Shown here piece after piece: positions 6,336-25,200 of a stretch of DNA of 26,818 nt (its first letter is position 1; the number at the start of each line of letters is the position of its first letter). Source of the stretch: a virus; IMG/VR virus record IMGVR_UViG_3300030098_006066, positions 1 to 26,818 of that record, one strand, 5' to 3'. The position numbers were made by a program, and so were the translations under genes. Under the pieces are notes generated by a model, which was given only the letters and a program-made list of their open reading frames with translations, made no database searches and was not told the DNA's origin.

Positions 6336-7175
6336 ATGACAAAGAAAAAAGAAATAAAAGTTGAGGCTGAAAGTCCTCAAGTAGAAAAAATGGTTATTGA
6401 AAAACCAGTGGTTAAAGTACAACCACAAATAAAAAAGAAAAAAGGATTAGAAGATAATTGGGAAATAAAAGATAGAATGTATTATTTACTTGGCAGTAAA
6501 TCGCCACTAACTTATTTAATAAGAGGTAGTAATATTCATTATTGGGATGAAGAAAAGGGTTATGAAAGAGAATTAAAGTATTGTTCGAATCAAAAAACTT
6601 GTTTTGTAGATGAAATGAAAGGAGATCAAAGATTAGAACATATTATTTTTAGAAACGGATCTTTAATGGTTCCTAGAACTAAAACAGTTTTGCAAAAACT
6701 TTTATCATTATACCATCCTCATAGAGATAGGTTGTTTAAAGAGCATAGGCCTGTTAAAATAGCAGAGAATCAAATTGACATGCTAGAAATGGAGATAGCT
6801 GCGCTAAACGCCGCTAAAGATTTAGATATAGATATGGCAGAAGCTATCATGAGGGTAGAAGTTGGTTCTAAAGTGTCAGAGATGAGTTCTAAAGAATTAA
6901 AAAGAGATTTACTATTATATGCTAAAAGAAATCCTAAATTATTCTTAGAATTGTTAAGTGATGAAAATGTTCATCTTAGAAACTTTGGAATAAAAGCAAC
7001 TGAGATGGGGATAATAAAATTATCACAAGATCAAAGGACGTTTTTATGGGGCTCTAATAATAGAAAGTTAATGACAGTTCCATTTGAAGAACATCCATAT
7101 ACAGCGTTAGCTCATTGGTTTAAAACTGATGAAGGGATGGAAGTATTTTCCAATATAGAAAAGAGATTAAAATAA
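6336..7175 (+). CDS. Conserved phage protein of unknown function downstream of the capsid gene
   Basis: The product is 279 residues. Residues 1-35 are a Lys/Glu/Val-rich, probably disordered tail. After that comes a mixed alpha/beta part with a conserved-looking core, YCSNQKTCFVDEMKGDQRLE (about 89-108), then FRNGSLMVPRTKTVLQKLLS and a YHPHRD segment, and a helical C-terminal half. I recall similar proteins next to capsid genes in Bacteroidota and marine phages but know no assigned function. A head-associated or head-completion role is a guess from position only. The gene is unusual in being flanked by two terminator hairpins (6276-6312 and 7193-7230) with no copy of the downstream promoter-like element before it. 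Its expression may therefore depend on read-through from the capsid transcript. Confidence 0.8.
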   Translation: MTKKKEIKVEAESPQVEKMVIEKPVVKVQPQIKKKKGLEDNWEIKDRMYYLLGSKSPLTYLIRGSNIHYWDEEKGYERELKYCSNQKTCFVDEMKGDQRLEHIIFRNGSLMVPRTKTVLQKLLSLYHPHRDRLFKEHRPVKIAENQIDMLEMEIAALNAAKDLDIDMAEAIMRVEVGSKVSEMSSKELKRDLLLYAKRNPKLFLELLSDENVHLRNFGIKATEMGIIKLSQDQRTFLWGSNNRKLMTVPFEEHPYTALAHWFKTDEGMEVFSNIEKRLK

Positions 7176-7192
7176 TAATTTCTTAAATCATT

Positions 7193-7230
7193 AAAAGTAG
7201 CCACCTATTACGGGTGGCTATTTTTATTTA
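7193..7230 (+). terminator. Rho-independent terminator after the 6336-7175 gene
   Basis: TAGCCACC (7198-7205) pairs perfectly with GGTGGCTA (7213-7220) around a 7-base loop, TATTACG. The stem can extend outward through A-T pairs to about 7193/7225. The + strand continues as a T-rich run (TTTTTATTT). It lies 22 bases downstream of the stop codon and just before a promoter-like element, so it separates two transcription units. Confidence 0.88.
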
Positions 7231-7252
7231 AGTACTAACCTTTCACTTTATT

Positions 7253-7276
7253 ATGTAACTATATAATAGTAAAATA
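7253..7276 (+). promoter_or_regulatory. Candidate phage late promoter, copy 1
   Basis: A 24-base A/T-rich segment beginning ATGTAACTA and containing TATAAT (7262-7267) recurs exactly at 17473-17496. In both places it starts 31 bases before an ATG and ends 7 bases short of it, while the flanks differ. Here it directly follows a terminator, which is where a new transcript would need to begin. No conserved -35-like element is shared upstream of the two copies, and the Bacteroidota -7 consensus TAnnTTTG is absent. The promoter reading is an inference; a conserved mRNA leader element controlling translation is the alternative. Confidence 0.6.
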
Positions 7277-7283
7277 TAAACAA

Positions 7284-8039
7284 ATGGCAATAAGTATAGA
7301 TACAGTATATCAAAAGGTATTAGCAATGGCTAATAAAGAACAAAGAGGTTATATAACACCTCAAGAATTCAACTTACTAGCAGACAAAGCCCAAAATGAA
7401 ATATATGAAAATTATTTTCATGGAGTTAAAATGACTGAAGCAAAACCTAAGCATTCAGAATACTACGCGGATGAACTTGAAATGTTAGAAGAAAAGCTAC
7501 ATCCTTTCCATGTTGATACTACTATAAAAATAAACTCTAACCCATTAACTCTACCAACAACATATCCAGTTCAAAAACTTATTAGTATAACAAGAGGTAA
7601 TGGAACTAGAGTAACTCAACTTAATAAAAGCGAAATAGCTTATACAGAGAGTCATCCTTTGACAAAAGCGACAGCGACAAGATCTGTTTTTGTAAGAGAA
7701 GATGCTGGAACGGTAACAATATATCCTGCTCCGTCGTCATCAACTTATAATGTAGTTTATGCTACTAATTTATCTGGATTAAATAACGATTACGAAACAT
7801 TTGAAGTTAGTTATTATAAAACTCCTACAACTCCAAAATGGACTTATGTTGTAGTAAATGGTAAAGCTCTTTATAATGGTCAAGCTTCAGATGCACAGGA
7901 TTTTGAATTACATATTTCTGAAGAAGAAAATTTAGTATTAAGGATATTAATGTTAGCTGGATTAACAATTAAACAACCTGATATCATACAAGCTGGAGGA
8001 CAAGGTTTACAAATGATTAAACAAGAACAAAATAGTTAA
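7284..8039 (+). CDS. Head-tail connector / ring-type adaptor protein
   Basis: A 251-residue structural protein, probably docking below the portal to form the connector. Its N-terminal helix carries NKEQRGYITPQEFNLLADKA (residues 18-37), a signature I recall from connector-region proteins of Bacteroidota phages including crAss-like ones. A beta-rich centre follows (about 75-175), and a helical C-terminal end rich in Gln/Leu closes the protein. It is the first gene of the second block, opening 7 bases after the candidate promoter. The next gene follows after only 2 bases. The exact ring (first, second, or adaptor) cannot be decided without structural comparison. Confidence 0.75.
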   Translation: MAISIDTVYQKVLAMANKEQRGYITPQEFNLLADKAQNEIYENYFHGVKMTEAKPKHSEYYADELEMLEEKLHPFHVDTTIKINSNPLTLPTTYPVQKLISITRGNGTRVTQLNKSEIAYTESHPLTKATATRSVFVREDAGTVTIYPAPSSSTYNVVYATNLSGLNNDYETFEVSYYKTPTTPKWTYVVVNGKALYNGQASDAQDFELHISEEENLVLRILMLAGLTIKQPDIIQAGGQGLQMIKQEQNS

Positions 8040-8041
8040 TT

Positions 8042-8959
8042 ATGGGATTATTAGACGGAACAAATCAAGCTACTTATTATAATTCAAGTAATTCACCTAA
8101 TTACGGTAATTATCAATTTATAAGTTTAGATCATATTATAAATGGATTTATGATATCTTACGTTGGGGAAGGTAAAATAATAAAAAAAGTAAATAGAACA
8201 GATGTGCAATTTCATGCAATGAGAGCTATACAAGAACTTTCATATGATGTATTTAGGTCTATTAAAGCATACGAAATAAACGTACCAAATACGTTGAAAA
8301 TGATTTTACCACAAGATTATGTAAACTACGTAAAATTAACTAGAATTGATTCTAATGGTATTGAAAGGCTTTTATATCCTACTGGAAAAACATCAAATCC
8401 ATTTCATATAAAACAATCTACAGATGGTACATATGGTTTTGATGATTTAGATAATGATGGCACAGATGACACTCTTGATACTGGTGGTGGAGATCCATAT
8501 ATATATACTGATAGTTCTGCTTGGGAAAACTACCAAGATCAAACCGCAGATGATTCTTATGGAGATGACGAGACAGATAGAGATATAGATAGTAGAGGAA
8601 GAAGATATGGTTTAGATCCACAGCATGCTCAAGCTAATGGTACTTTTTATATAGACTATCTTAGAGGATATATACATTTTGGCTCTAGCTTAGCTGGACA
8701 AGATATAATACTAAAGTATATTAGTGATGGTTTGGGTACTGATGATGAAATGGTGGTTCATAAATTTTGTGAAGAAGCTTGTTATAAGTGGATAGCTCAT
8801 GGTGTATTAGCAACAAGATCTAATGTACCAGAGTATTTAATAGCAAGATTCAAAAAAGAAAGATTTGCTGAATCTAGAAAAGCAAAGATAAGATTATCTA
8901 ATATTAAAATAGAAGAATTTACTCAAGTATTAAAAGGAATGAGTAAACCAATAAAATAA
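8042..8959 (+). CDS. Head-tail connector / neck-type protein with Asp-rich insert
   Basis: The 305-residue product belongs by signature to a connector family common in marine phages. The conserved C-terminal half runs from RRYGLDPQHAQANGTFYIDY through RGYIHFGSSLAGQDIILKYI to SDGLGTDDEMVVHKFCEEAC (about 180-245), then a basic helical tail. The N-terminal helix-rich part (about 25-110) is likely the portal- or ring-facing face. Between the halves (about 118-178) lies a very acidic low-complexity stretch containing DDLDNDGTDD (residues 134-143), similar to Asp-rich calcium-binding loops. The gene follows its predecessor by 2 bases and precedes the giant hub gene by 5, so the three are probably co-translated. 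The neck or ring assignment comes from family resemblance and position. Confidence 0.75.
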   Translation: MGLLDGTNQATYYNSSNSPNYGNYQFISLDHIINGFMISYVGEGKIIKKVNRTDVQFHAMRAIQELSYDVFRSIKAYEINVPNTLKMILPQDYVNYVKLTRIDSNGIERLLYPTGKTSNPFHIKQSTDGTYGFDDLDNDGTDDTLDTGGGDPYIYTDSSAWENYQDQTADDSYGDDETDRDIDSRGRRYGLDPQHAQANGTFYIDYLRGYIHFGSSLAGQDIILKYISDGLGTDDEMVVHKFCEEACYKWIAHGVLATRSNVPEYLIARFKKERFAESRKAKIRLSNIKIEEFTQVLKGMSKPIK

Positions 8960-8964
8960 TAAAT

Positions 8965-11900
8965 ATGCCGGAGATTAAACATACATTTCATGCCGGAAAA
9001 ATGGACAAGGATACAGATGAAAGACTTGTCAAAAACGGTGAATATAGGGATGCTTTAAACGTACAAGTTAGAACTACAGATGGTGGATCTGATGGTACTG
9101 GTGATGCTGGTGCTATTCAAAATATAAAAGGTACTAAACGAGTTATATTGGTTACTCCTACTACGAGTTATATAGATGATAATATATCAGGAGAAAAAGA
9201 TGAAACTAGGATTATAGCAAGTATTGCTGATGAAGCAAAAGATAGAGCGTTCTTTTTTGTGGCGTCTCCAGTTCCTTTTAATGGTATAGAAAGCATATCG
9301 CATACAGATATAATAAATGCTAGTCTTAATAGTGACGGTGATGTTGTAACTGGTCAATCTAAAAGAGATTGGATAGATAGAATAGTCGAATTAAATTATA
9401 GTCCTCAAAATGGTGGTGGTACTGATTACGACACTATATTTGTAGATAAATGGGCAGTCACCTGTACTTATGCAGACGCTGTTTCATCTCCTAGTTCTTC
9501 TACTAGTTATTCTTATATAACTGTCACAAATGGTGCTTTATATAGAGAGGGAATGATATTATACGCTCAAAATAGCAGTGGTGTTGATTTATTACATCAT
9601 ACAATAACAGTAGATGGAGAAACTTATAGTAGTACTCCTGGAGTTGAAATTGTAAAAATATCAGGTAATGATCTAGTATTAGCTGAAACACAAACATCAA
9701 ATCTACAAGAAAGTTGTGCTGTAATGAAATTCATACATCCAGAAAGAGTATTAGAATTTGATTATTATAAATCATCAGAAAATAATGTACAAAGAATTCA
9801 TAATGTAATTACTGGTATTAATATCATTGATGATTTATTATTCTGGTCTGATGGTATTCATGAGCCTAAAAAAATAAATATAGAAAGATCTAGAAAAGGT
9901 ACAACAACTGATGCTACACATACAGAGCTTTGGGTTACACATCCAGTAACTCATGAGTTAGTAAAAGTAACGGATATAGAACCAGATTTAAATACAGCGG
10001 ATATAAAAAAAGAACATATAACTGTTATAAGAAAAGCTCCGCAATCCGCTCCAACTTTACATATGGATATTAGCGACAGGGAGAATGATACCTCGTTTGA
10101 GATTAGTTATAATTTTAAAGATAATAATAGTATACCAAGTATACCTACTGAAGGATGTACAAGAATAATACCTTTCCCAATAGAAATAGATTGTAGAGAA
10201 GATGATGTTTTTAAGTTTACATCTGATAATATTTTTTCTAATGAACCATCAATAGTACGAGCTAAAGTTATTAATATAGATGGTACTAATGTTACTGTTA
10301 GATTAATATTTATGAGTAATGATGTGGCTGAAAATGATCCTAGTAATTGGGATGTAGAATTAGAGCAAAGAAAACCTTTATTTGAAACTAAATTTGGTAG
10401 ATTTGCTTATAGATACCAATACGATGATAACGAATATTCTAGTTTTTCACCTTGGTCAGAATTAGCTTTCTTACCTGGAGAGTTTGAATATTCACCTAGT
10501 AAAGGATATAATAAAGGTGTTGTTAATAATGTAAGAAGTTTGATTGTTAAAGATTTTGTGCCTCATGATGTTATAAGACCTAGCGATGTTAAAGCTATAG
10601 ATATACTTTGGAAAACAACAGATAATGCTAACGTATATATTGTAAAAACTATAACAAGAGAAAGAGATATAGAGTGGGAGAATTATACAAATACTATTAC
10701 TGATAATACTGGTTCTATTACAATAACATCTGAGATGATACACAAAGTTGTTCCTTCTAATCAAACACTTAGAGGTTGGGATAATGTACCTAGAAAAGCT
10801 GTTGCTCAAGAAATGACAGCTAATAGACTTATATATGGTAATTATATTCAAGGTTATGATTTACAGAATTCTTTTGGATTAAAGCAGTCTGTAATATCAA
10901 ATAGAGTACAATTTCCTAAACCTAGAAAATCTGTAAAATCAGATAGAAGTTATAGATTTGGAGCGGTATTTGGTGATAAGTATGGTAGAGAAACACCAGT
11001 TATGGCTAGTGGTTATAAAAATATACAGTTACAAGGAGATAATGAAGTAATTGAGAATATATCTGGTGATTTAGTTGTTGAAAAAAGTTTATCAGCTTAT
11101 AGTAATAAATTTCAATTAGAACAAAGTTGGGATGGTGTACCGGGAGAGTGGATGGATTATGTAAAATATTTTGTAAAAGAAACATCTAACGAATATTATA
11201 ATCTAATAATGGATAGATGGTATGAGGCTGAAGATGGTAACATATGGGTAGCTTTTCCTTCTGTTGATAGAAATAAGGTTGATGAAGAAACATTCTTGCT
11301 ATTAAAAAACGGGCATGGAACCCAAATGCCAATTGCAGAAGAAGCTAGATATAAAATTATAGCTATAGAAAATAATGCTCCAGATTTTATAAAAACTGAG
11401 AATAGAGATTACGATAAAATATACATAGTTAGAGATAATATTTATAGTGGAAGTCAAAGTGCTGTTACAGATGCCATACCAGATAAACTAATAGAAGAAA
11501 GAGAAATAATGATAGCAGCGGAACATTGGGATGCAGTAAAACCTAATACAGCTGATTTTAAAGGTATAGCAAAAGCTAGGATTATAGGTATATTCTCTAG
11601 CCCCGCAGATGGTGATGTTCAAGTTGAGAGTCCTTGGAGAAATTTAACTAAAATAATAGATCACGATAATGGAGGCGATCCTGTTAGAGGTGTTGTTTTT
11701 AATAAGCCGTTTGAGGAGAGTGAAGTCAACATGTACGAGAAATTACTATTAGAACTTTCAGATCCATCTGAATTAACAGATAATAAAGCAACTGTAGATA
11801 ATCCTAATGCAGATGGTTGGATACAGTATTATATACAACTTAGAGATGCTGTTATTGATAATAAACCACAATTTGATGGTAGATTTTTTGTTAAATTAGA

Positions 11901-14900
11901 AAAAGATTCTGTATTAGAAAAATCAGTATTAGGTACACAGGTTAGTTATGAAGTTCAAGCTACTTATGAGGTGGCTTATATTGCCGCAAAAGCAGAAAAT
12001 GAAGCAAATGTCTCTGAAGAAGATGATTTTACTCCAGGTCCTTATAATAATCCAAGTGATGCTACTTCTAATGATTGGCCTGGGAATGTATTTACATCAG
12101 CAGAAATAGAATATGATGCAAGTTATAATAACTCCTTAACTGCGCAAGGACCTCCTGCTGGAGAATCAGTACCAGCTGGTAATGTTAAAGTTGAAGATTT
12201 AACTAATGCAGATGGAGAGGTAAATGAAGATTTAACAACAAATGAAAATGGTATATCAGAAGCAGAGCAAACTGTTCCGCTATTCGGTCCTGGAGATCAT
12301 AGTAGTAATGGGAATAAAACAGAGCAATTCTGGGAATGGTGGTGGAATCAAGGTGTAGGTGGTAATACTAATAGAAAAAGTAATATATTTATAGATAGTG
12401 CCCCAGCATATAGTGGTTTTAGTAAAGTAATAGATTTAGTTAATTCTGATGATGGTACAGAAACAAAACGTCAAATTTTAAGATTTCTTAATTCTGGTTA
12501 TCAACCTTTAAGTCATTTTAAAGATAATTATATATATGGTCCTTATCCTTCTGGAGCGACATATCCTTATCCACCATACGATCTTGAATGGGATGGATCG
12601 GAATCAAAACAAAATTGGTCACCACAAGGACTTAGTAATGGTCATTTATCAAATGGAGAACTTGGGCAATTTACGTTTTCAGTAATTAAAGATGATTGGT
12701 CCACATCAGCTAGCGATGCTTTATTTAAAAGTGCTATGACAACTGTTGGAACTATATTTAGATTTGAAAATGATCCTAATAATGTTAATTATAAAATAAT
12801 ATCTTTTGTACAAAATACAGATGGTGACGGATTTGAGGGATTTGGTTCATTTTCAAACGGACAAGAAATAACAATAGAAAGTAGAAACTACGCAAACACA
12901 GAAGGTAGTCTTCGTAATAGATATTCAATTATAACTAGATTTGTAAGACTTAATGCTAGTAATGTAGAAGAACCTAATACTGGTATAGACATCAGTAAAT
13001 GGGATCCAAGAGGAGAAGTTAGACATGATGGTATAGGTAGTTTAAAAATACAAGTATTAACTCAAGTAGGAAACTTTAGTTTATCGGATAGATCACTTGC
13101 TACTAACGCGGCTTGCTGGGAAACTGAACCTAAAGAAGATATTGGTTTAGATATATATTATGAAGCTAGTGAGGCAATACCTATGAATTTAAAAGATACG
13201 GGAGATTTAATAACTTTTACTAAACCTTCGGCAAATAAGAAAAGAGCAAGTAACACAACGTTAGTAGATCGAACCTTTGATAGTAGTATGATTAGACCAA
13301 CTTTACCGTCAGACGCATATGTTAGTAATGTGTTAAGTAACGACGCTATTAAAATAATGTACCAAGGTTATGAGTTAGTAAACGGCGTGCAACAACCTAG
13401 CTACGAATTACCTTTAACTATTGATGTAGATAGACCTGGGTATGGTTTATTTCCAGGTGATATAATTAATTTTATACATAAATCTTCTCCGTATAAAAGT
13501 GGGATAATAACTAATTCAAAGATAATAGATTATTATGATGTTATAACAGGTTTACCTGGAAGTACAACGATACCAACTCTTTCTCCTAGAGAGACTAGAG
13601 ATGGTGTTCCGTATGCAGTTGGTGGTCAGGTAGCTGGAGCTGAAGGAGGTGGAGCTTGGTTAAAAACAGATGTAGGTGATATAAGTGGTAATAGTATAAT
13701 TGGTGCAGCTGTAACAGGACCTGGATTACCAGAAGTAGGTGTTGTTGTTTTAGATACTGGTTATGCAGGTTTTGGCGAACCTGCAGTAAGAGTTAATTGG
13801 AAATTTGATAATGATTATGCAAACGTATCAAATGCTTATGAATTTAAAATTTCTACTGGATGGTATAAAATAGATACTGAGGTTTGGAGATATCCTATAG
13901 AATTAGGATGGTTTAATTGCTATTCATTTGGTAATGGTGTAGAATCCGATAGAATAAGAGATGATTTTAATGCACCAACAATTGATAATGGTATTAAAGT
14001 TTCTTCTACATTTTTAGAGTATGGAAAAGAAAAGTTAGGTAGTGGATTAATATATTCTGGTTTATACAATTCAACTTCTGGCGTTAATAATTTGAATGAA
14101 TTTAACATGGCAGAGAAGATAACGAAAAATCTAAATCCAATATATGGCTCTATACAAGCGTTGAAAACTTCTGAAAAGAATTTAATCGTATTTGCTGAAG
14201 ATAAAATATTAAAAGTTTTAGCTAATAAAGATGCTATATATAACGCTGATGGCAATCCACAATTAACCGCAACAAATAAAGTATTAGGAGACACAACTCC
14301 TTACGCTGGAGACTTTGGTATATCTAAAAACCCTGAATCGCTTGCGTGGGATCAATATAGAATGTATTGTACTGATAAACAAAGAGGTGCAGTACTTAGA
14401 ATATCAATGGATGGTATAACACCTATATCAGATGTAGGTATGAGAACTTATTTTAGAAATAGGATGAAACTTAGCGATAGTATGGTTGGGACTTTTGATA
14501 CTGTAAACGGTGAGTATAACGTAACATTAGATAAAGGGTGGAAATATAATACAGCAGATGCAGTACCAACAACAGTATCATTTAATGAAAGATCTAAAGC
14601 TTGGACAAGTTTTAAATCGTTTATTCCATCAACTGGTGTTTCTGTTAATGGTAGATATTTAACAGCTAATAAAAATATGGTTTGGGAGCATTATTCAGAT
14701 ACAGCACCAAGAAATAATTTTTATGGTACTCAATATCAATCTGAAGTAGAAGTAATATTTAATGACATGCCTAGTGTTATTAAATCTTTTAAGACCATAA
14801 ATTATGAAGGAACTCAATCTAAAGTAATTCAATCTTATAATATATCTACAAGTAGTACTATATTGGATGCTGTCGGAAATAGCGTTTCTACAGATGATGG

Positions 14901-15213
14901 AGAATATTATAATTTAACATCTAAAAATGGGTGGTGGGTACAATCTTTTACAACGGATTCGCAAGAAGGTGCCGTACCTGAGTTTATAAATAAAGAAAAT
15001 AAATGGTTTAATAGAATAAGTGGAATAGCAACTACTGAAAGTAATTTAGATATGAATGAGTTTTCCGTTCAAGGTATAGGATTTCCATCTACTATTACTT
15101 CAGCGTCTACAGAAGATGCATCTGTACCTACAGCTGGTGATGAAGTTGACTTTATCATTGAGGATACTTATGATGGTGTTGATACAGGGATATATGGAGA
15201 TGATAGTTTGTAA
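8965..15213 (+). CDS. Giant stabilization / tail-hub protein (P22 gp10-like family, 'muzzle'-like)
   Basis: A 2082-residue protein, likely the closure or hub of the short tail that seals the channel and retains packaged DNA. Motifs I recall from the phage stabilization-protein family: GKMDKDTDERLVKNGEYRD (residues 11-29), FGRFAYRYQYDDNEYSSFSP (477-496), AEDKILKVLANKDAIYNADG (1744-1763) and ISKNPESLAWDQYRMYCTDK (1786-1805). These are spread along the chain, and the last two may belong to a beta-propeller-like C-terminal region. Residues about 1010-1135 are an acidic, Asn/Gly/Pro-rich linker. Around 1570-1600 there is a VTGPGLPEVGVVVLD motif typical of small beta domains in virion proteins. The protein is much longer than P22 gp10 (under 500 residues), so most of it is extra. 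It follows the connector gene by 5 bases. Confidence 0.82.
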   Translation: MPEIKHTFHAGKMDKDTDERLVKNGEYRDALNVQVRTTDGGSDGTGDAGAIQNIKGTKRVILVTPTTSYIDDNISGEKDETRIIASIADEAKDRAFFFVASPVPFNGIESISHTDIINASLNSDGDVVTGQSKRDWIDRIVELNYSPQNGGGTDYDTIFVDKWAVTCTYADAVSSPSSSTSYSYITVTNGALYREGMILYAQNSSGVDLLHHTITVDGETYSSTPGVEIVKISGNDLVLAETQTSNLQESCAVMKFIHPERVLEFDYYKSSENNVQRIHNVITGINIIDDLLFWSDGIHEPKKINIERSRKGTTTDATHTELWVTHPVTHELVKVTDIEPDLNTADIKKEHITVIRKAPQSAPTLHMDISDRENDTSFEISYNFKDNNSIPSIPTEGCTRIIPFPIEIDCREDDVFKFTSDNIFSNEPSIVRAKVINIDGTNVTVRLIFMSNDVAENDPSNWDVELEQRKPLFETKFGRFAYRYQYDDNEYSSFSPWSELAFLPGEFEYSPSKGYNKGVVNNVRSLIVKDFVPHDVIRPSDVKAIDILWKTTDNANVYIVKTITRERDIEWENYTNTITDNTGSITITSEMIHKVVPSNQTLRGWDNVPRKAVAQEMTANRLIYGNYIQGYDLQNSFGLKQSVISNRVQFPKPRKSVKSDRSYRFGAVFGDKYGRETPVMASGYKNIQLQGDNEVIENISGDLVVEKSLSAYSNKFQLEQSWDGVPGEWMDYVKYFVKETSNEYYNLIMDRWYEAEDGNIWVAFPSVDRNKVDEETFLLLKNGHGTQMPIAEEARYKIIAIENNAPDFIKTENRDYDKIYIVRDNIYSGSQSAVTDAIPDKLIEEREIMIAAEHWDAVKPNTADFKGIAKARIIGIFSSPADGDVQVESPWRNLTKIIDHDNGGDPVRGVVFNKPFEESEVNMYEKLLLELSDPSELTDNKATVDNPNADGWIQYYIQLRDAVIDNKPQFDGRFFVKLEKDSVLEKSVLGTQVSYEVQATYEVAYIAAKAENEANVSEEDDFTPGPYNNPSDATSNDWPGNVFTSAEIEYDASYNNSLTAQGPPAGESVPAGNVKVEDLTNADGEVNEDLTTNENGISEAEQTVPLFGPGDHSSNGNKTEQFWEWWWNQGVGGNTNRKSNIFIDSAPAYSGFSKVIDLVNSDDGTETKRQILRFLNSGYQPLSHFKDNYIYGPYPSGATYPYPPYDLEWDGSESKQNWSPQGLSNGHLSNGELGQFTFSVIKDDWSTSASDALFKSAMTTVGTIFRFENDPNNVNYKIISFVQNTDGDGFEGFGSFSNGQEITIESRNYANTEGSLRNRYSIITRFVRLNASNVEEPNTGIDISKWDPRGEVRHDGIGSLKIQVLTQVGNFSLSDRSLATNAACWETEPKEDIGLDIYYEASEAIPMNLKDTGDLITFTKPSANKKRASNTTLVDRTFDSSMIRPTLPSDAYVSNVLSNDAIKIMYQGYELVNGVQQPSYELPLTIDVDRPGYGLFPGDIINFIHKSSPYKSGIITNSKIIDYYDVITGLPGSTTIPTLSPRETRDGVPYAVGGQVAGAEGGGAWLKTDVGDISGNSIIGAAVTGPGLPEVGVVVLDTGYAGFGEPAVRVNWKFDNDYANVSNAYEFKISTGWYKIDTEVWRYPIELGWFNCYSFGNGVESDRIRDDFNAPTIDNGIKVSSTFLEYGKEKLGSGLIYSGLYNSTSGVNNLNEFNMAEKITKNLNPIYGSIQALKTSEKNLIVFAEDKILKVLANKDAIYNADGNPQLTATNKVLGDTTPYAGDFGISKNPESLAWDQYRMYCTDKQRGAVLRISMDGITPISDVGMRTYFRNRMKLSDSMVGTFDTVNGEYNVTLDKGWKYNTADAVPTTVSFNERSKAWTSFKSFIPSTGVSVNGRYLTANKNMVWEHYSDTAPRNNFYGTQYQSEVEVIFNDMPSVIKSFKTINYEGTQSKVIQSYNISTSSTILDAVGNSVSTDDGEYYNLTSKNGWWVQSFTTDSQEGAVPEFINKENKWFNRISGIATTESNLDMNEFSVQGIGFPSTITSASTEDASVPTAGDEVDFIIEDTYDGVDTGIYGDDSL

Positions 15214-15231
15214 TTAAAATAAATATAAAAA

Positions 15232-17085
15232 ATGGCAAATAATTATTTTATAGAAGGTAATGGAGAAATAGATAGTCTTGGTAGAGCTATCTTTAAAACT
15301 TCTGAAAATAAAGGTGACTCGACTTTCGATGGAAGTATGGTTACATCTGGTGCATTAATAGTACAGCCAAATGCTGGATACACTGTTGCTGCAGCTGATT
15401 TTTCTATTTCTAATTTAAGTACGCTAACAACCCCATACTTAGATAATGGTGAAGAAAACCCTGATTATAAGTGGGTTGAAGGTATTACTATAGCAGACAC
15501 TGGTACTCCTGGGACTATATCAAATACTATACGTATTACAGTATCTTTAGTAACATCAGGACCAAGAGGTCCTCTAGTTCTATCCAGTAATTTTACTATA
15601 GGATTAGATATAGATGGGGATGCTTTAGTTAATAATGTACCTGAAAATGTTGCATTTAATATACCTATTATAAATCAAAACAACGCGGCAAATCAATTCG
15701 CTGGATCAGATACAGATATAAATGCCAATGCCACTGTAACACTAACTCCTGAATCTGGTGTTTCTATAAACACTGTAGCTAATGGAGAGTTTAGTGAAAT
15801 GACACTAACTGGTCAAGTAGCACCAGATGAACCAACTAACGTTGGTAATATAAATATAGCAGCTAACGCTGGGTATTACTTTCAAGAAACCCCTTATTTA
15901 TCATACGTAGATACACCTAGTGATATCATCGCTTTAAATTCTCCAACTATAACATATAATAGCGATAATTTAGCAACTGCTTTTAGTTTTAATGTTGTAT
16001 ATAAAAATAGTGTAGATACAACAAACAATTCTCAATCAAAAACATTTGTAAGATATAAAACAACACAAATACCTACTGCAACAAAAGAAATTCAAGATAT
16101 TAAATTTGGCCAAACTCAAGTATCAAATAGAGGCGATATGAGAAATATTGCAGTACATGGTGACGCTGACGCAGAGTTTGATATCACTATACAAGATAGC
16201 CGTAGTGTATCTATTATAGATTCAAATCTTTCTAATAAAAAAACACTAACAGGAGATATTGCAGAATCTGATGCTATTAGTAAAAAATTAAAATCAACTG
16301 GTAGAAAAAAGGGAAAAACTTCATATAAGTTCGATCAAGAATTTCCTGCTTATAAGTCATTAATAAGAGACACTGCTCTTAATATGGGTGGAGGTTTAAG
16401 TGGTACTAAGGCTATATTTACCAGTTTAACTGGTGTAGCAGTAGGGGATAGAGTAATGATGGATGAAATACCTAATAGCACAGAAGTAACCGTTTCAGCA
16501 TTAAATCCAGATGGGGATAATGTAAACGAATGTACTCTCTCATCATCTGTTACTGCAAGTAACGGTAGTAAGGTAAGATTTCATAGACCACAAACATATT
16601 ATATAAATATTTATCCAAGAGAAGGAACTACATTAAGTTCTAGAATTCCTACAGTAACACCTCACTATACTATAAAACAATATGACGATCCTATTCTTAC
16701 TCTAAAGACTAAAGAAACTGATGCTGGTTATGCTGCTATAGGTACTTATAAATATACAGGTAAAGCTAATGCTCATCCAAGTCAATTAAAAGATACGCCA
16801 AGAATGTTCTCTTGTAAAATAACTGGTACTAGAAGTGATGGTGGTACTTTTGCTGCTGTAGGTGCTACTAGTGGTATACCAACTTGGTCAAGTACGGATT
16901 CCACAGTTTCATCTTGGAGTAACTCTACTTATGCTGATAATGGTGGTATGCATATAGAAATATTTAATATAGCTGTTAGTGGTATAGGTGGTGCAAGTTA
17001 TGTATTAACATTTGAAGTACTCATAAAAAGATGGGGTACAGAGGACGTTACCATGATTTTAGATTTAGACACAATAATAACATAG
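15232..17085 (+). CDS. Beta-rich virion protein with repeated Ig-like segments
   Basis: The 617-residue product is dominated by Ser/Thr/Asn/Val beta-strand sequence with no enzymatic motif seen, as in phage tail appendages or head decorations. Two parts resemble each other: one around residues 40-110 containing QPNAGYTVAAADFSISNL, and one around 195-265 containing IAANAGYYFQETPYLSY. This suggests duplicated Ig-like domains. Residues about 400-450 hold a GVAVGDRVMMDEIPNSTEVT segment, a small beta-domain motif also seen in neighbouring proteins. It is transcribed with the hub gene (18-base gap) and the small gene downstream (5-base gap). Host-range or receptor-binding function is possible but not shown. 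Confidence 0.72.
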   Translation: MANNYFIEGNGEIDSLGRAIFKTSENKGDSTFDGSMVTSGALIVQPNAGYTVAAADFSISNLSTLTTPYLDNGEENPDYKWVEGITIADTGTPGTISNTIRITVSLVTSGPRGPLVLSSNFTIGLDIDGDALVNNVPENVAFNIPIINQNNAANQFAGSDTDINANATVTLTPESGVSINTVANGEFSEMTLTGQVAPDEPTNVGNINIAANAGYYFQETPYLSYVDTPSDIIALNSPTITYNSDNLATAFSFNVVYKNSVDTTNNSQSKTFVRYKTTQIPTATKEIQDIKFGQTQVSNRGDMRNIAVHGDADAEFDITIQDSRSVSIIDSNLSNKKTLTGDIAESDAISKKLKSTGRKKGKTSYKFDQEFPAYKSLIRDTALNMGGGLSGTKAIFTSLTGVAVGDRVMMDEIPNSTEVTVSALNPDGDNVNECTLSSSVTASNGSKVRFHRPQTYYINIYPREGTTLSSRIPTVTPHYTIKQYDDPILTLKTKETDAGYAAIGTYKYTGKANAHPSQLKDTPRMFSCKITGTRSDGGTFAAVGATSGIPTWSSTDSTVSSWSNSTYADNGGMHIEIFNIAVSGIGGASYVLTFEVLIKRWGTEDVTMILDLDTIIT

Positions 17086-17090
17086 ATATT

Positions 17091-17462
17091 ATGGCAGAGA
17101 TTACTTTATACTTTCCAGAAACAGAACAGTCATCAGTACAAGTGGGTGACACGGCTTATTATATAAATCCTGATGATGATTCAGGTGGATTTCAAGTTGC
17201 TAACCAAGATAATTTAGTACTTATTGGTACGATAATAGAAATACAACCATCTCCTCCTAATAGCACATTTGTTATAAAATGTAATATAGATGATAGCACA
17301 CCTTTACCTACTTCATCAAGTTTTATATTATTTTCTAAAAACAATTCTGTTAATTGTTCTTCTTTATTAGGATATTATGGTTCTGCTAAATTTAAAAACA
17401 ATTCTACGGAAAAAGCAGAGATGTTTGCTACTAGTTGTGAGGTTAACGAAAGTAGTAAATAA
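17091..17462 (+). CDS. Small conserved virion protein, 123 residues
   Basis: The likely start is the ATG at 17091, five bases after the upstream stop and preceded by an A/T leader. An in-frame ATA codon at 17031 would force a long overlap with the upstream gene and is less likely. The protein is beta-rich. Its N-terminal part (VQVGDTAYYINPDD, then LIGTIIEIQP) looks like a small barrel. The C-terminal part contains YGSAKFKNNSTEKAEMFATS followed by CEVNESSK, an ending I recall from small structural proteins of marine phages. The three Cys residues are scattered. Function is unknown; a tail or baseplate accessory role is inferred from position. It is the last gene before the second promoter-like element, with no hairpin terminator behind it. 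Confidence 0.75.
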   Translation: MAEITLYFPETEQSSVQVGDTAYYINPDDDSGGFQVANQDNLVLIGTIIEIQPSPPNSTFVIKCNIDDSTPLPTSSSFILFSKNNSVNCSSLLGYYGSAKFKNNSTEKAEMFATSCEVNESSK

Positions 17463-17472
17463 CAAGTAAAAA

Positions 17473-17496
17473 ATGTAACTATATAATAGTAAAATA
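17473..17496 (+). promoter_or_regulatory. Candidate phage late promoter, copy 2
   Basis: An exact 24-base copy of 7253-7276, with TATAAT at 17482-17487. It ends 7 bases before the ATG of the next gene, the same spacing as copy 1. It lies in the 41-base gap between two genes. Sequence outside the 24 bases is not shared, which argues against a recent segmental duplication and for selection on the element itself. Confidence 0.6.
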
Positions 17497-17503
17497 ATAA
17501 AAT

Positions 17504-18208
17504 ATGTCGACAATTAGAAAAGATAACGAATCACCTTTTAAAATATGGCAAGCTATAGGCGGCCTAGTAGGTGGTTTGTATACTGGTATACAAGCTGGTA
17601 AAGCCGCTAAAAAGGCTGAAAAAGCGGAAAAAAAGGCTAGAAAAGAAAGAGATGCTGCGAGGCGTGATATGAGGAATATAGATATGAGTAATCCATTCGA
17701 AGGAATGCAAAACCAATTTGCTGGCATGGAGAACAAAATGGAGGATTTAACGATTAATCAAAAAGAAGCGCAATTTGCAGCACAACAATTTGCTCAGAGT
17801 CAATCTAATATTATGTCAGGGTTAAGAGGAGCCGCAGGTGGTAGTGGTATAGCAGCATTAGCTCAATCATTAGCACAACAAGGACAATTAGCTGCTCAAA
17901 AATCAGCAGCTGGTATTGGTCAGCAAGAAGCAGCTAATCAAGCTAAAATGGCTCAAGAAGCTAGTAATATACAATTAAAAGAAAGAGCAGGAGCTGCTCA
18001 AGTTGCTCAACAAATAGCAGCGGGTGAAGCGGCTTCTCAAACAAGAGAGTTACAAAAACAACAAGCAATATTTAATGATGCTTCTGCTGAGTACCGAGCG
18101 GCTCAAGGAACGGCTGCGGCTGCCCAAGCACAGAAAGATCAAGCTTGGGGTGGTGTTATAGAAGGTGGAGTAAGCGCTATTGGATCGCTAGTAACTGGCG
18201 GTGTTTAA
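17504..18208 (+). CDS. Putative internal virion (ejection) protein, Ala/Gln-rich, T7 gp14-like architecture
   Basis: The 234-residue protein has a Gly-rich hydrophobic N-terminal helix (WQAIGGLVGGLYTGIQAG, about 15-32), a Lys/Ala/Glu coiled coil (33-55) and a long Ala/Gln-rich helical region (about 85-205). It ends in a second Gly-rich hydrophobic segment (GGVIEGGVSAIGSLVTGGV). This matches in plan, not in aligned sequence, the small internal core protein gp14 of T7 and similar ejection proteins, which line the channel and insert in the host envelope. Its position just before large unknown virion-type genes fits. It is the first gene after promoter-like copy 2. A tail chaperone or a minor capsid protein are alternatives. 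Confidence 0.68.
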   Translation: MSTIRKDNESPFKIWQAIGGLVGGLYTGIQAGKAAKKAEKAEKKARKERDAARRDMRNIDMSNPFEGMQNQFAGMENKMEDLTINQKEAQFAAQQFAQSQSNIMSGLRGAAGGSGIAALAQSLAQQGQLAAQKSAAGIGQQEAANQAKMAQEASNIQLKERAGAAQVAQQIAAGEAASQTRELQKQQAIFNDASAEYRAAQGTAAAAQAQKDQAWGGVIEGGVSAIGSLVTGGV

Positions 18209-19223: not shown

Positions 19224-22200
19224 ATGAAAAAAAGATACAAAGTAATTGTAAATGGTAAAACTGTTTATAAAAATGTTTTACCAGAAAATGAAGAAAAATT
19301 CTGGAAAGATTACGGACAATACGATCCTATTGAAGTAAACATGCCTGGCTTCCAAAGCGAGGAAGAATTAGCAGTAACGCTAGAAAATCAAAATCAAAAT
19401 CAAAATCAAGACGAGTCAGTCAAAAAAGAATCCAAAGAAATAAAAATTGATAAAATTAATTTAGAAGATTATCCAATAAATAGTCCTGAAAGAAAAAGTA
19501 AATATGATGAATTAGGTTGGGTCTATGACGCTACAATAGATGGGTACGATGTAGATAATTGGAAAAAGAAGGGGATATTAAAAGAAGACAAAGTATTTGA
19601 ACAAGAAGAAAATGGGAAAATTTGGACTCAAACTGGAGGATTCGGTGAAAGTGAAGAAAGTGGGAAACAAGTATGGGAATGGGTTAGTGCAGAAGAATAT
19701 GAAAAAATAAAACTAAAAAAATATGATCTAGAAGAGTTTAATCCTATCCAAAAAAATATACTTGAAGCACATAAGAAAAACGTAAACGATCCTAATTACA
19801 AGGGTCTGACTGATAATCAAGAAGCTATAATGGAAACCGGGAATCCTCTTTATGGTTACACTATGAGTGAAGTAACTGGCATGGGTGTAGATGCTTATGA
19901 AGATCTTTCTTCAGAAGAAAAAGATGCAATTAAAGAAGATTTAAGAAATGAAGGTAGTATAGGGGCAGGGGATTATAGTATACCAGTAAATCTTAAATAC
20001 CCTACTGAAGAAGAAATCTCCGAATATTTAACCAATGTACTCCCTCTATCTGATAGAACTCATATAAAAGGCACAAGATATACAAAGAATACCGCTACTG
20101 CTGTAGAAAATATATATAAAGAAAGAGGAGCAGAAGGAGTTTATATTAACAATTATAGTGCTGATGGTATAGCTATTAATATTGGAGAGGGTCCTATTAG
20201 TGAAGCTTTTCCTCATATACATGCTGATGCCACTGTAAGTACATACAACAATTATTATGTAGGTGATTTAAATACGTACGTAAGAACAATAACCGAACCT
20301 AAATATAAAGAAGAATTATATTCATATATATATGATTTAGCTGGTAACTCACTTTATTTAGAAGATTTAGGACAATTTATTGGTGATTTAAATGTTAGAA
20401 AAGCATTTTATTCTCAACAAGATTATTTATCACCTAGAGAGCAGAGTATAGAAGGGTATGAAACTAATAGAAGAGTAGAATTATTAGATGGTTTATACAA
20501 AAGAGGATTGTATAATAGAGATATAAAATCTTTAATGGATTCTTATTATAATGCGTCTGCTAAGCCGGTGCTCCATCCTTTATTTCAAGATTGGGTGGAT
20601 CCACAAGATCAACAAGCTTATCAAGGTTATGGAGTTTCAGCTATGGGTTACGATTTATACGAAGCGGATTTTGTTAAAGAGCCAGGTATCAACGGATGGG
20701 ATCCAAATGTTCCTTGGGAAAGTCTTAGTACAGAGCAAATTGAAAAAATGAAAGCTGACCCTGATCTTAGTTTCTTATTTGATTACGAAAAAGAATTTAA
20801 TAAAAAATTCAAAAAAAGAAGTGAAGGAGGATATGAGTATGCTTACGGTGTTAATCCATTTATTAGCATGGGGTACTCTACAAATAATATACACGCACCG
20901 TATATATCGCCAGGTATGATAGAAAATGGTAATAATAAAACCCAATTTAATAGAGCTGGTGATTTAAATATGTATTTACAAGAAAATTCAAAATTTGCTA
21001 TAGGGGGAATAATGGATTTGAAAAAACGGTTCGGTGATGATTTTGTTAGTGAATCCAAAGGTGGGTATATTACTTTAGAGGATGGGACGAAAATATCGCA
21101 TGATTTTATTTGGAAAAACAAAAAAGATATTTTACAAATTGGTAGCGAAATAAATATTCAAAAAGGAAAAGAAAAAGAGAAAGAGAAAATAGCAGAAGGA
21201 CGTTGGGGTAGTGAGGGGCATGAAACAGATCTACATAAATGGAGAGAAAAGAAAAAAAATGAGGTAAATTCAATATACTTTAGTGATGTAACGTTTAATG
21301 GTATATCTAGTGATGGTACAAATGAAGATGGAGAAAAAGTAGCTAATGGTGAAGATATTTGGAGAGAAGGAGCTATGTATAGTTATTATACTGATGAAGG
21401 TCAATTCGATCCATATTTGTTACATCATTCTGATGGTAAAATAAATGTAAAAATAGCTAAATATAAAGATTTAGTAGCAAAATTAGATGAATACCCTCAA
21501 GATGATTTATATGGTAAACATTTTTCAGGAGGAGATGATAAAACGACAATTGGTGAAGTAAGAAATATTTATGCGAATGAAATGGCGAAGATGTATAGAC
21601 AGCAGGGACATCAACCATTATATGATGATGATGGTAATTTCATAGATGTAATAAAGAGGGAATGGAAAGAAGAAAATGGCTATAATGTTTTAAGGGATAT
21701 TAATGGTAAAATCATAGAGAAAGTACAAATAATAGGTACTATGGAAGAAGCAGAGGTTTTAGCTGAAGCCAATGATCTATCTGCACTAGAAGCCAAATTT
21801 AATGATTTACACTATAGACTTGTAATGAACGCTAAAGCTCTTGCGGGAAATATGGACGAAGTTCTAGGTGATCAAAAAAATGTACATAAAAATATTTCTT
21901 ATATAAAAGGGCTTTTGGGTGCTGGAGATGATTCTTGGATGCATGATATGAAGCAAATAATAAAAGTTGCTTATGGTGAAAAATTAACAGGTCTTGATAG
22001 TGACGATGTATTACTTAAGTACTTTCCTCAATGGAGTGATAAAGATGCTTTTGGTTATGATTTAGATGATGATTTACCTTACTTAACCAAAATATCTGGA
22101 ACTAATGATTTATCTAAAAAACATAATGCTCTTTTAAATCAATTAGTAACAACATATCTAGCTATTAGAATAAATACGAATCCAGTTAAATTACCAGTGG

Positions 22201-25200
22201 AAGGCGTATTATCTGAAATGAAGAAAAACTTAGCATTAGCTTTTACTGGTGAAGATTATAATCCCTCAGATCCTAAAGTAGAAGATATTAAAAACACCGC
22301 AGTACAAATATTTAACGATATGAACTACGACGTTCCTGCTAACACTGTCGTACGAGAAAGCCTTGACAGACAAACTTATGATAGAATTACAAGTGGTGTT
22401 TTCAGTATAGCACAATTAACAGTTGCTGTGGCCGTCGGTAATAGAGCCCTTGCTCTTGGTAAAGGATTTAAGTTATTAAATGCTTGGGTTAATGGGACAA
22501 AGACGATAAGGAATGCTAGCAAAACAGCAAAACTAATAACACAATGTGGTTTAGGAGCACTTGCTACAACAGTGCAATTTACTGCTGGTGAGCAAACTTG
22601 GTCTATTGCGACTGGAAATGATATAAATATGACGCTCTATCAAGATGAAAATGGAGAATGGGTTTTTCATCCAACTATAGCAGTAGCGTTAGGAGTTGGT
22701 ATGCCTATGTGGACGCAGTTTAAGAATGTTATGAACGGTAGATTAATGAAGGCTAATAAGAACTACGCGCGTTTAAATAAGTTAATGCCTGAAACAGTTA
22801 AAAAAGTTGTTTCTAAAGCGGGTAGCGGTGTGCTTCCAGCAACGATAATAGCAGTACCAACAGAATTAGAGAGTTTATTAAAGACTGGGGAATGGTCTCA
22901 AACACCTGATAATATATCACATTACCAAGCATTTCTTGAATCAATTATAACATTTTCAGCATTTGGAATGATGAAAGGTGGCCCTAAAGAATATTATGAA
23001 GCTGCTAAAGTAGATGTATTAAAATTAAAAGGTTTTGATGTAGCGCAATATAATGGCATGAATACCCTTGGGATTAAGAAGAACCAAAGAACTAAAGATG
23101 GTATAATAGATTATGATTTAATAGAAAATACAGCTAATAATAAAAAGAAAGAAATAGATAATGAAATTAAGAAAGTAGAAGAGTCAAATATATCTGCAGA
23201 AAAAAAAGGTGAAAAGATAACTGAATTAGAAAATAAAAAAGCTGAATATGAGCAAGCGAAAAGAGATTTAAATACTTATAATCTTTATGTAGAAGCCAAG
23301 ACTATTGCTAAAAAAGAAAATAACTACGGAGAGTTTTTACAAAGAACTTATCTAGATACCCAAACATTTAATAATTTAATACGTAATCCAGAAAACTTAA
23401 CTATAAAAGAAATAGAGTTAATAGGTAACTCTTGGAGAGGATTAAGACCAGAAGCACTTAGTCAAATATATAGCAAATTAGGATGGAAAGAAGGTTCGGT
23501 AAATATGCTGCATGCTGATTTCCTAGCATTTCAAGTTATGAAAAGTGTACATAAACTTGATATGATGGGCATTGAAACGAATAACTTAAAAAGACAATCT
23601 TACTTAAGAAAAAATCTTGAAATAGCATATAATCAAAATAAAATAAATATTTTAAAAAATGCTATTGAAAAAAATCCTGAATCAAAAACTGTAAATACAG
23701 AAAAAATAAAAAGAATAGAGAAGGAGAACAAGGAACTTAGAGAAGAAACACATAATATAGAAGTAGAGTTTGCTGAGAATTTTAAAGGAGAATTAAAACG
23801 TGAAAATGATTATTTAAAGCTAGTATTAGAAGGAGATAATAAAAAAATAGATGCTAAGATTGAAAAAATTAAAAAAGATAAAACATTATCTGTACAAGAA
23901 AGAAATCAAAAAATAGCTAAACTAAATGCAGATAAAAGAGGATATCACGCTGTTAATACAAATAAATTTAAAAATATAGTAAAAAAAGAAGGTGGTATTT
24001 GGGAAAAAACTATGTTTGCATTTATTTCAAAAGATGGTAAAAGAATATATGTAGATCAACAAAAAGCTTTTAAAGAAAAATCATTATCAGATGGTATGCA
24101 TGATGGTATACACATGATGTTATACAATCATCTAAAAACTGTAAATTCTAAAGGTCAAAGAGTATTATCAAAAAAAGGTATAGCAACTATAGATCGTATG
24201 TTAGATTTATTACCTGGTGGAAGGTCTGGGGATGCTTATCAAACACTTAAAAAAATCGTTGAAACGAATTATAGATATAAAGTAGATATTGAAGCTTCGC
24301 AAAAAGAAAGTTTAAAAAGAGGTGAAGAAACAATTATATTTGAAAAGGATAAAAATGGTAAACGTATAGAAACTCCAAAGGAAGAGTATTACGAAGAATA
24401 CGTTACCAAATTAGGTCAACTTATAAGAAGTGGAAAAATAGAATCAACAGAAAACTTAGGCACAAGACTTGGTAAAGCTTTTTATCCAATATTTAAAAAA
24501 GTTGGTCCTTTTAAAGGTATGTACGAATTCGATATAGGTAATACTAATACCAAAAAAGCTGGAACAGATTTATTAAAATTTGTAGAATGGGTGGGTACTA
24601 AAGGCTTTACGGAAAATGTACTTGAGCTTGGCAGAGGAAAAGGATTTGGAGAGGGTATATCTGCTATAGCGAAGTCTAAAGATATACATTCTCAAATATC
24701 AAAACTTAAATCTGGTTCGAAAAAAATTGTTGATAATAACAATACTATATCAGAAATGTTAACAAAACGTGCCAAAGAAAAGTTTGGTGAAAATTGGAAA
24801 GAAATTTTAACGAGTAAAACACCTTCAAATAAAGCTAAACAAAAAGAGTTTATTGAAGAAACATCGGAATTAAGAAATGCTATAGTAAAGAATAATGAAA
24901 ATGTAGCACATTGGATGGCGTCACATCCTAAGTATGGTGGTAAAGGTGGATACAGTGGTATAGAAGGCGACATATTAGTTGGTAAAGACAGATTTTTTGA
25001 AAAGTTTGAAAATGAATTATATGAATTGAGTAGAACCTACAATCCAGCTAAAGGTACTCCAGTAGGTGCTTATTTATTTGAAACTATAAGATATAGATAT
25101 CCAAAGATAATGGAGCAATTAGCACCTGAAACTCGTACTAGATCAATAACAACAGAAGATGGGAAGATACTTGATGTAAAAGATATTGTTAATTATGAGA

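Follow-up and report, generated by a model that had tools for sequence, protein, structure and literature searches.

Some phages bring alternative sigma factors with promoters of their own, well-known examples being gp55 of T4 and gp28 and gp33/34 of SPO1. Such factors, again with promoters of their own, are likewise described for staphylophages of the Herelleviridae (PMC10383478). In all three cases a sigma factor made by the phage redirects the host polymerase to later genes by way of promoters that are not those of the host. The regulation that we propose below for a group of marine phages would be of this known type, while its promoter sequence appears to match none that has been described. 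Unlike in T4, SPO1 and the Herelleviridae, the promoter is predicted to read T[GT][TA]AA[AT]-N17-extended RAYTAT, and the sigma gene lies directly before one of its presumed targets. Literature searches returned no paper that we recognised as describing a sigma factor or a late promoter in phages of this group.

The DNA that was analysed (hereafter the window) is a fragment of 26,818 bases, which is the whole of its IMG/VR record and covers structural genes only. It encodes a terminase, a portal, a 401-aa protein, a capsid-type protein and a 279-aa protein and, further, virion proteins of adaptor-like and ring-like type, a protein of 2082 aa that ends in a C-terminal crAss muzzle domain, and a giant open ORF. 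The latter (19224-26816, plus strand) runs over at least 2531 aa and has no Pfam or PHROG match; its relatives reach up to 3789 aa and contain a DxDGDG acidic loop. The relatives of the portal, all below 60% identity, belong to Flavobacterium elemo phages, to Cellulophaga, Tenacibaculum and Maribacter phages and to one spring-water phage, and a DNA similarity search against INPHARED gave short chance-level matches only. The phage is marine, and its kin are Elemovirus and Pachyviridae.

The sequence ATGTAACTATATAATAGTAAAATA is present twice in the window (Table 1). The first-pass annotation had described two identical 24-mers with unlike flanks, both stopping 7 nt short of an ATG, and the coordinates in the window, with the two ATGs at 7284 and 17504, bear this out, as does the strong hairpin directly ahead of copy 1 for its placement behind a terminator. 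The search for further copies with mismatches that the annotation had proposed found these two only in the window at up to three mismatches (0 in 100 shuffles), and at least three promoter-placed core copies in near-complete relatives, so that near-complete genomes do hold more copies.

Table 1. Positions of the element and its neighbours in the window, and of the early element in related genomes (G numbers).
Feature	Position	Strand	Remarks
Intrinsic terminator closing the operon ahead of copy 1	7197-7230	+	10-bp stem, T run; hairpin 7196-7232, -16 kcal/mol, z -4.2
Putative -35-like box of copy 1, ACTAAC	7234-7239	+	place of the conserved T[GT][TA]AA[AT] box of 43 class-3 sites
24-base element, copy 1	7253-7276	+	core TGTAACTATA at 7254-7263
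Putative extended -10 of copy 1, TG-T-AACTAT	7254-7262	+	predicted start near 7269
Adaptor-like virion protein, first gene behind copy 1	7284-8039	+	phrog_14543, E 1.5e-35; SU10_adaptor below cut-off
Putative -35-like box of copy 2, AGTAAA	17454-17459	+	overlaps end of preceding gene
24-base element, copy 2	17473-17496	+	core 17474-17483; predicted start near 17489
234-aa protein (ORF17504), opening the operon behind copy 2	17504-18208	+	no PHROG match
Early element	G059 31802; G065 55782/56223; G083 38380/38607; others	+	
Early element	G063 11853/11422/7477	-	

The exact 24-mer was found in 65 IMG/VR stretches, which is far beyond chance. Among 62 records searched at up to three mismatches, 24 hold two copies and 38 hold one, never more, and the copies within any record always lie on one strand; a reversed control pattern gave one match. 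Class 1 copies precede the adaptor operon behind the terminator and class 2 copies precede the ORF17504 operon, the classes being assigned by flank strings, which leaves 82 of 225 contexts unclassed, many of them coding matches. The terminator sequence followed by CTAACCTT occurs in 118 IMG/VR stretches, this block being conserved by construction of the search in the context alignment.

The distance to the start codon, which had been taken as fixed, is equal in the window and varies among the relatives. Behind the 66 exact copies, two of which come from the one stretch L047, the first ATG (not a verified start) follows after 7 nt in 39 cases, 9 nt in 10 and 6 nt in 8, and after another distance, in all from 5 to 24 nt, in 8, the copy of L067 being cut by the contig end. 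Since the offset in the relatives changes with the first gene, its equality in the window is no rule. A small gene (M..KSKGLGD...) stands between the class-1 element and the adaptor gene in L010, L017, L028, L040, L043 and others, and from this insertion it follows that the promoter serves whichever gene comes first.

The TATAAT that the annotation had pointed out is indeed contained in both window copies, but it is not a conserved part, as relatives vary in what follows ACTATA (of 95 distinct contexts, 47 have A as the next base and 45 have T). What is conserved is the core TGTRAYTATA together with a -35-like T[GT][TA]AA[AT] box at a constant distance: in 43 distinct class-3 sites the box occupies positions -20 to -15, counted from the T of TGT, with A in 43/43 and 42/43 at two of its positions, and is followed by a variable spacer and then by YRTGTRAYTATAWWTATA. 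If RAYTAT, preceded by TG, is read as the -10 hexamer, the spacer would be 17 nt long, like that used by sigma-70-type holoenzymes, and recognition would probably involve the -35 box T[GT][TA]AA[AT], 17 nt and the extended -10 TGT-RAYTAT. The earlier statement that the two copies share no -35 element was therefore too strong, as ACTAAC and AGTAAA lie equally distant in both and relatives keep such a box. Leaderless-like mRNAs, which had also been suggested, are unlikely because the predicted starts would leave leaders of about 15 nt and because the offset to the ATG varies. A scan of positions 6800-18000 with an E. coli-type sigma-70 consensus was not informative (77 matches vs 61.1 +/- 7.0 in shuffles); among the matches listed, none lies at copy 1 on the plus strand and an ATAACA-17-TATAAT overlaps copy 2.

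We compared the group with four phage genomes, the flavobacterial phages elemoA, Panino and phi19:3 and MW202828, which share its structural gene order and likewise have the adaptor operon behind a promoter of its own. They differ from it in using TAnnTTTG boxes, which we take to be the Bacteroidota housekeeping promoter consensus, and in having neither a sigma homolog (0/4) nor, in a domain search, a Sigma70_r4 domain (0/4). Upstream of the adaptor homolog this box reads TATCTTTG in elemoA, MW202828 and Panino and TAACTTTG in phi19:3, and in elemoA and MW202828 it also stands directly behind a terminator-like hairpin. In the stretches that were scanned, TAnnTTTG at 5-45 nt before ORF starts occurs 14, 13, 7 and 9 times in these four phages (reversed control 0, 3, 1 and 2) and 0-3 times in the window and seven further records of its group (control 0-3), where ORFs are ATG-only greedy calls and counts before starts shift slightly between scripts. 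In the window it is found 0 times before any start; the annotation had seen no Bacteroidota -7 motif in the two elements. TGTRAYTATA, for its part, stands before starts 2-4 times in the eight group sequences, window included, and 0 times in the four comparison genomes. The element appears to take the place of a host-type promoter at this orthologous site before the adaptor gene, supporting a promoter role, and we hold it to be very probably a promoter.

A candidate for the factor that reads it came from the relatives. In the 59-kb genome G059, a domain search of 41 chosen early and middle proteins, part of its ORFs, found that the protein encoded at 38945-39700 has Sigma70_r2 (25.5 bits) and Sigma70_r4 (29.4 bits), both over cut-off, so that a phage gene with sigma regions 2 and 4 is present (among the families listed, 25 of 34 and 25 of 47). 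This gene is the last one before a third core copy, which precedes an ERF recombination gene. The AlphaFold model of the protein is weak (pLDDT 61); among the Foldseek matches listed, those with an informative title are chains from bacterial holoenzymes or transcription initiation complexes. Its sequence matches in the PDB are mostly sigma factors, besides one weak NusG, the best being FliA/sigma-28 (6.2e-05) and SigA (2.6e-04), both weak. The sigma-28 consensus is TAAA...GCCGATAA and differs from the promoter described here. Among 50,697 phage records no close relative of the sigma factor turned up, apart from Bacillus phage BM15, which matches it in part (29.7% over 44%).

Sigma homologs were found in 9 of 43 IMG/VR records. 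Exactly the same 9 records contain the ERF gene, which Panino also has at 50% and without sigma, and the absences are therefore best explained by contigs that do not reach the region. The window's own phage would carry a sigma gene too, as judged from its relatives.

A sigma relative is encoded at 213 IMG/VR loci, and we surveyed the best 79 of them (80 were kept, and L280 was left out as the same phage as L279). Within 80 nt after the sigma stop the exact TGTRAYTATA was present at 62 of the 79 loci, with one mismatch at 7 and with more at 10, against 1 exact and 87 one-mismatch cores in 4757 control windows from the same loci. At three of the 79 (L335, L336 and L338) nothing similar to the core follows sigma. 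The core persists behind sigma down to a sigma identity of about 57%. L421 (51%, from a Saprospiraceae bin), which is the most distant sigma relative, has a host-type box, TATATTTG, after its sigma stop.

The pattern TGTRAYTATAWWW gave 60 matches in 31 sigma-bearing records (13 for the reversed control) and 4 in the four comparison genomes (1 for the control). In distant sigma phages, 9 of 20 matches fetched lie at the adaptor/ORF6336 junction and 8 behind the ORF17031 homolog, two have no assigned neighbour and one looks coding. A drift of CG for TG is common to two promoters of one genome in G110 and in G111, and not in G108 or G123. In L365 (G117), L368 (G121) and L370 (G115) the element precedes a strong-looking adaptor-leader hairpin and does not stand behind a terminator, and several other phages have such a hairpin without the element. 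A fourth promoter-placed core copy is seen before a gene starting MINW at G063 52492, G064 49140 and G008 40927, all on the plus strand.

Taken as a whole, one shared promoter precedes several later operons, as in a sigma regulon, and we consider it likely that host RNA polymerase reads the element once it carries a phage-encoded factor of the sigma-70 family. Against this reading stand L335, L336, L338 and L421, which lack the element behind sigma, and the missing common drift in G108 and G123. The early operon, with sigma as its last gene, would be transcribed first. Sigma would then send the host polymerase to the copy that immediately follows the sigma gene, and so to the ERF recombination/replication operon, as well as to the two copies before the adaptor and ORF17504 operons, and so to the late, structural genes. 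The annotation had thought of a polymerase either encoded or modified by the phage. The second option gains from an element that replaces a host-type promoter and travels with a sigma gene, and the first loses by the lack of an Rpb1-type domain in 7 sigma-bearing records.

A different reading, to which we give a rather low probability, is that the element serves the unmodified polymerase of a host with an unusual housekeeping sigma factor while the phage sigma acts elsewhere; the link between sigma and element is, after all, a correlation. The early genes bear on this question. In the clade they too are without TAnnTTTG, and small early genes are preceded by a second recurrent promoter-like element, ACAAA[CG]TAAATACGA-N9 (about 9 nt)-GATAATA, as a different host code would give. 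In a slightly relaxed form this pattern is present in 14 of 21 relatives scanned, and in the 13 of these in which the sigma gene was located it lies on the sigma strand only (the sigma region of G026 was not found); a pattern scan found it neither in the four comparison genomes nor in the window, which has no early region. A TATCTTTG at G059 -31824 was tried as a host promoter and rejected, being the reverse complement of the early element. Against an unusual host, however, early and late elements differ, so that one and the same host sigma would need to recognise the two, the core is no TTGACA/TATAAT promoter, and the copy directly behind sigma is kept across 57-100% sigma identity. Moreover, the sigma relatives found in species genomes lie in Bacteroidota bins in 3/3 cases, phage contigs being liable to misbinning, and the use of Shine-Dalgarno sequences is near the shuffled level, as it is in the comparison phages except phi19:3. 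It is conceivable, and we put it forward tentatively, that the clade has left the host promoter code, with the second element driving its early genes, the sigma element driving the middle and late ones, and a virion-delivered factor or a changed host holoenzyme reading the early set.

It is much less probable that the element is not a promoter at all and acts as an operator, with a phage regulator bound to the dyad TAACTAT-ATA-ATAGTAA, or as a translation or leader signal near the start codon. Most copies of classes 1 and 2 retain the ACTAT/ATAGT arms around a variable 3-nt centre, but the inverted repeat does not stand at every copy: it is lost in several late copies and in class 3, where its absence led us to reject ACTAT-N3-ATAGT as the operator. 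A translation signal is at odds with an offset to the ATG of 5-24 nt, and an RNA hairpin at the element was discarded, the RNA having no fold (z -0.48 and -0.09). In classes 1 and 2 a phage regulator may bind over the promoter as well. Least credible of all is a promoter for a T7-type or crAss-type virion polymerase encoded by the phage, since, despite the crAss-type muzzle domain in this phage and the virion polymerases for which crAss-like phages are known, no Rpb1_2 domain was found in 7 sigma-bearing records (control 14/14) and the -35/-10 geometry fits a sigma holoenzyme better. A T7-type polymerase domain search gave no match, with its control silent too, and the candidates for a virion polymerase from a DxDGD search were rejected as acidic-looking loops in structural or giant proteins.

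Should the clade have left the host promoter code, its phages would use a Bacteroidota polymerase for a phage-specific transcription programme in two steps, whereas their sister phages rely on host-type promoters. If the reading by a phage sigma factor is right, sigma and element would form a predicted pair in a group of marine phages that is well represented in IMG/VR, with 213 loci encoding a sigma relative, and the genomes of sister phages would show directly how one promoter has been replaced by another. The pair would also be a candidate for orthogonal transcription in Bacteroidota, a group with unusual promoters of its own.
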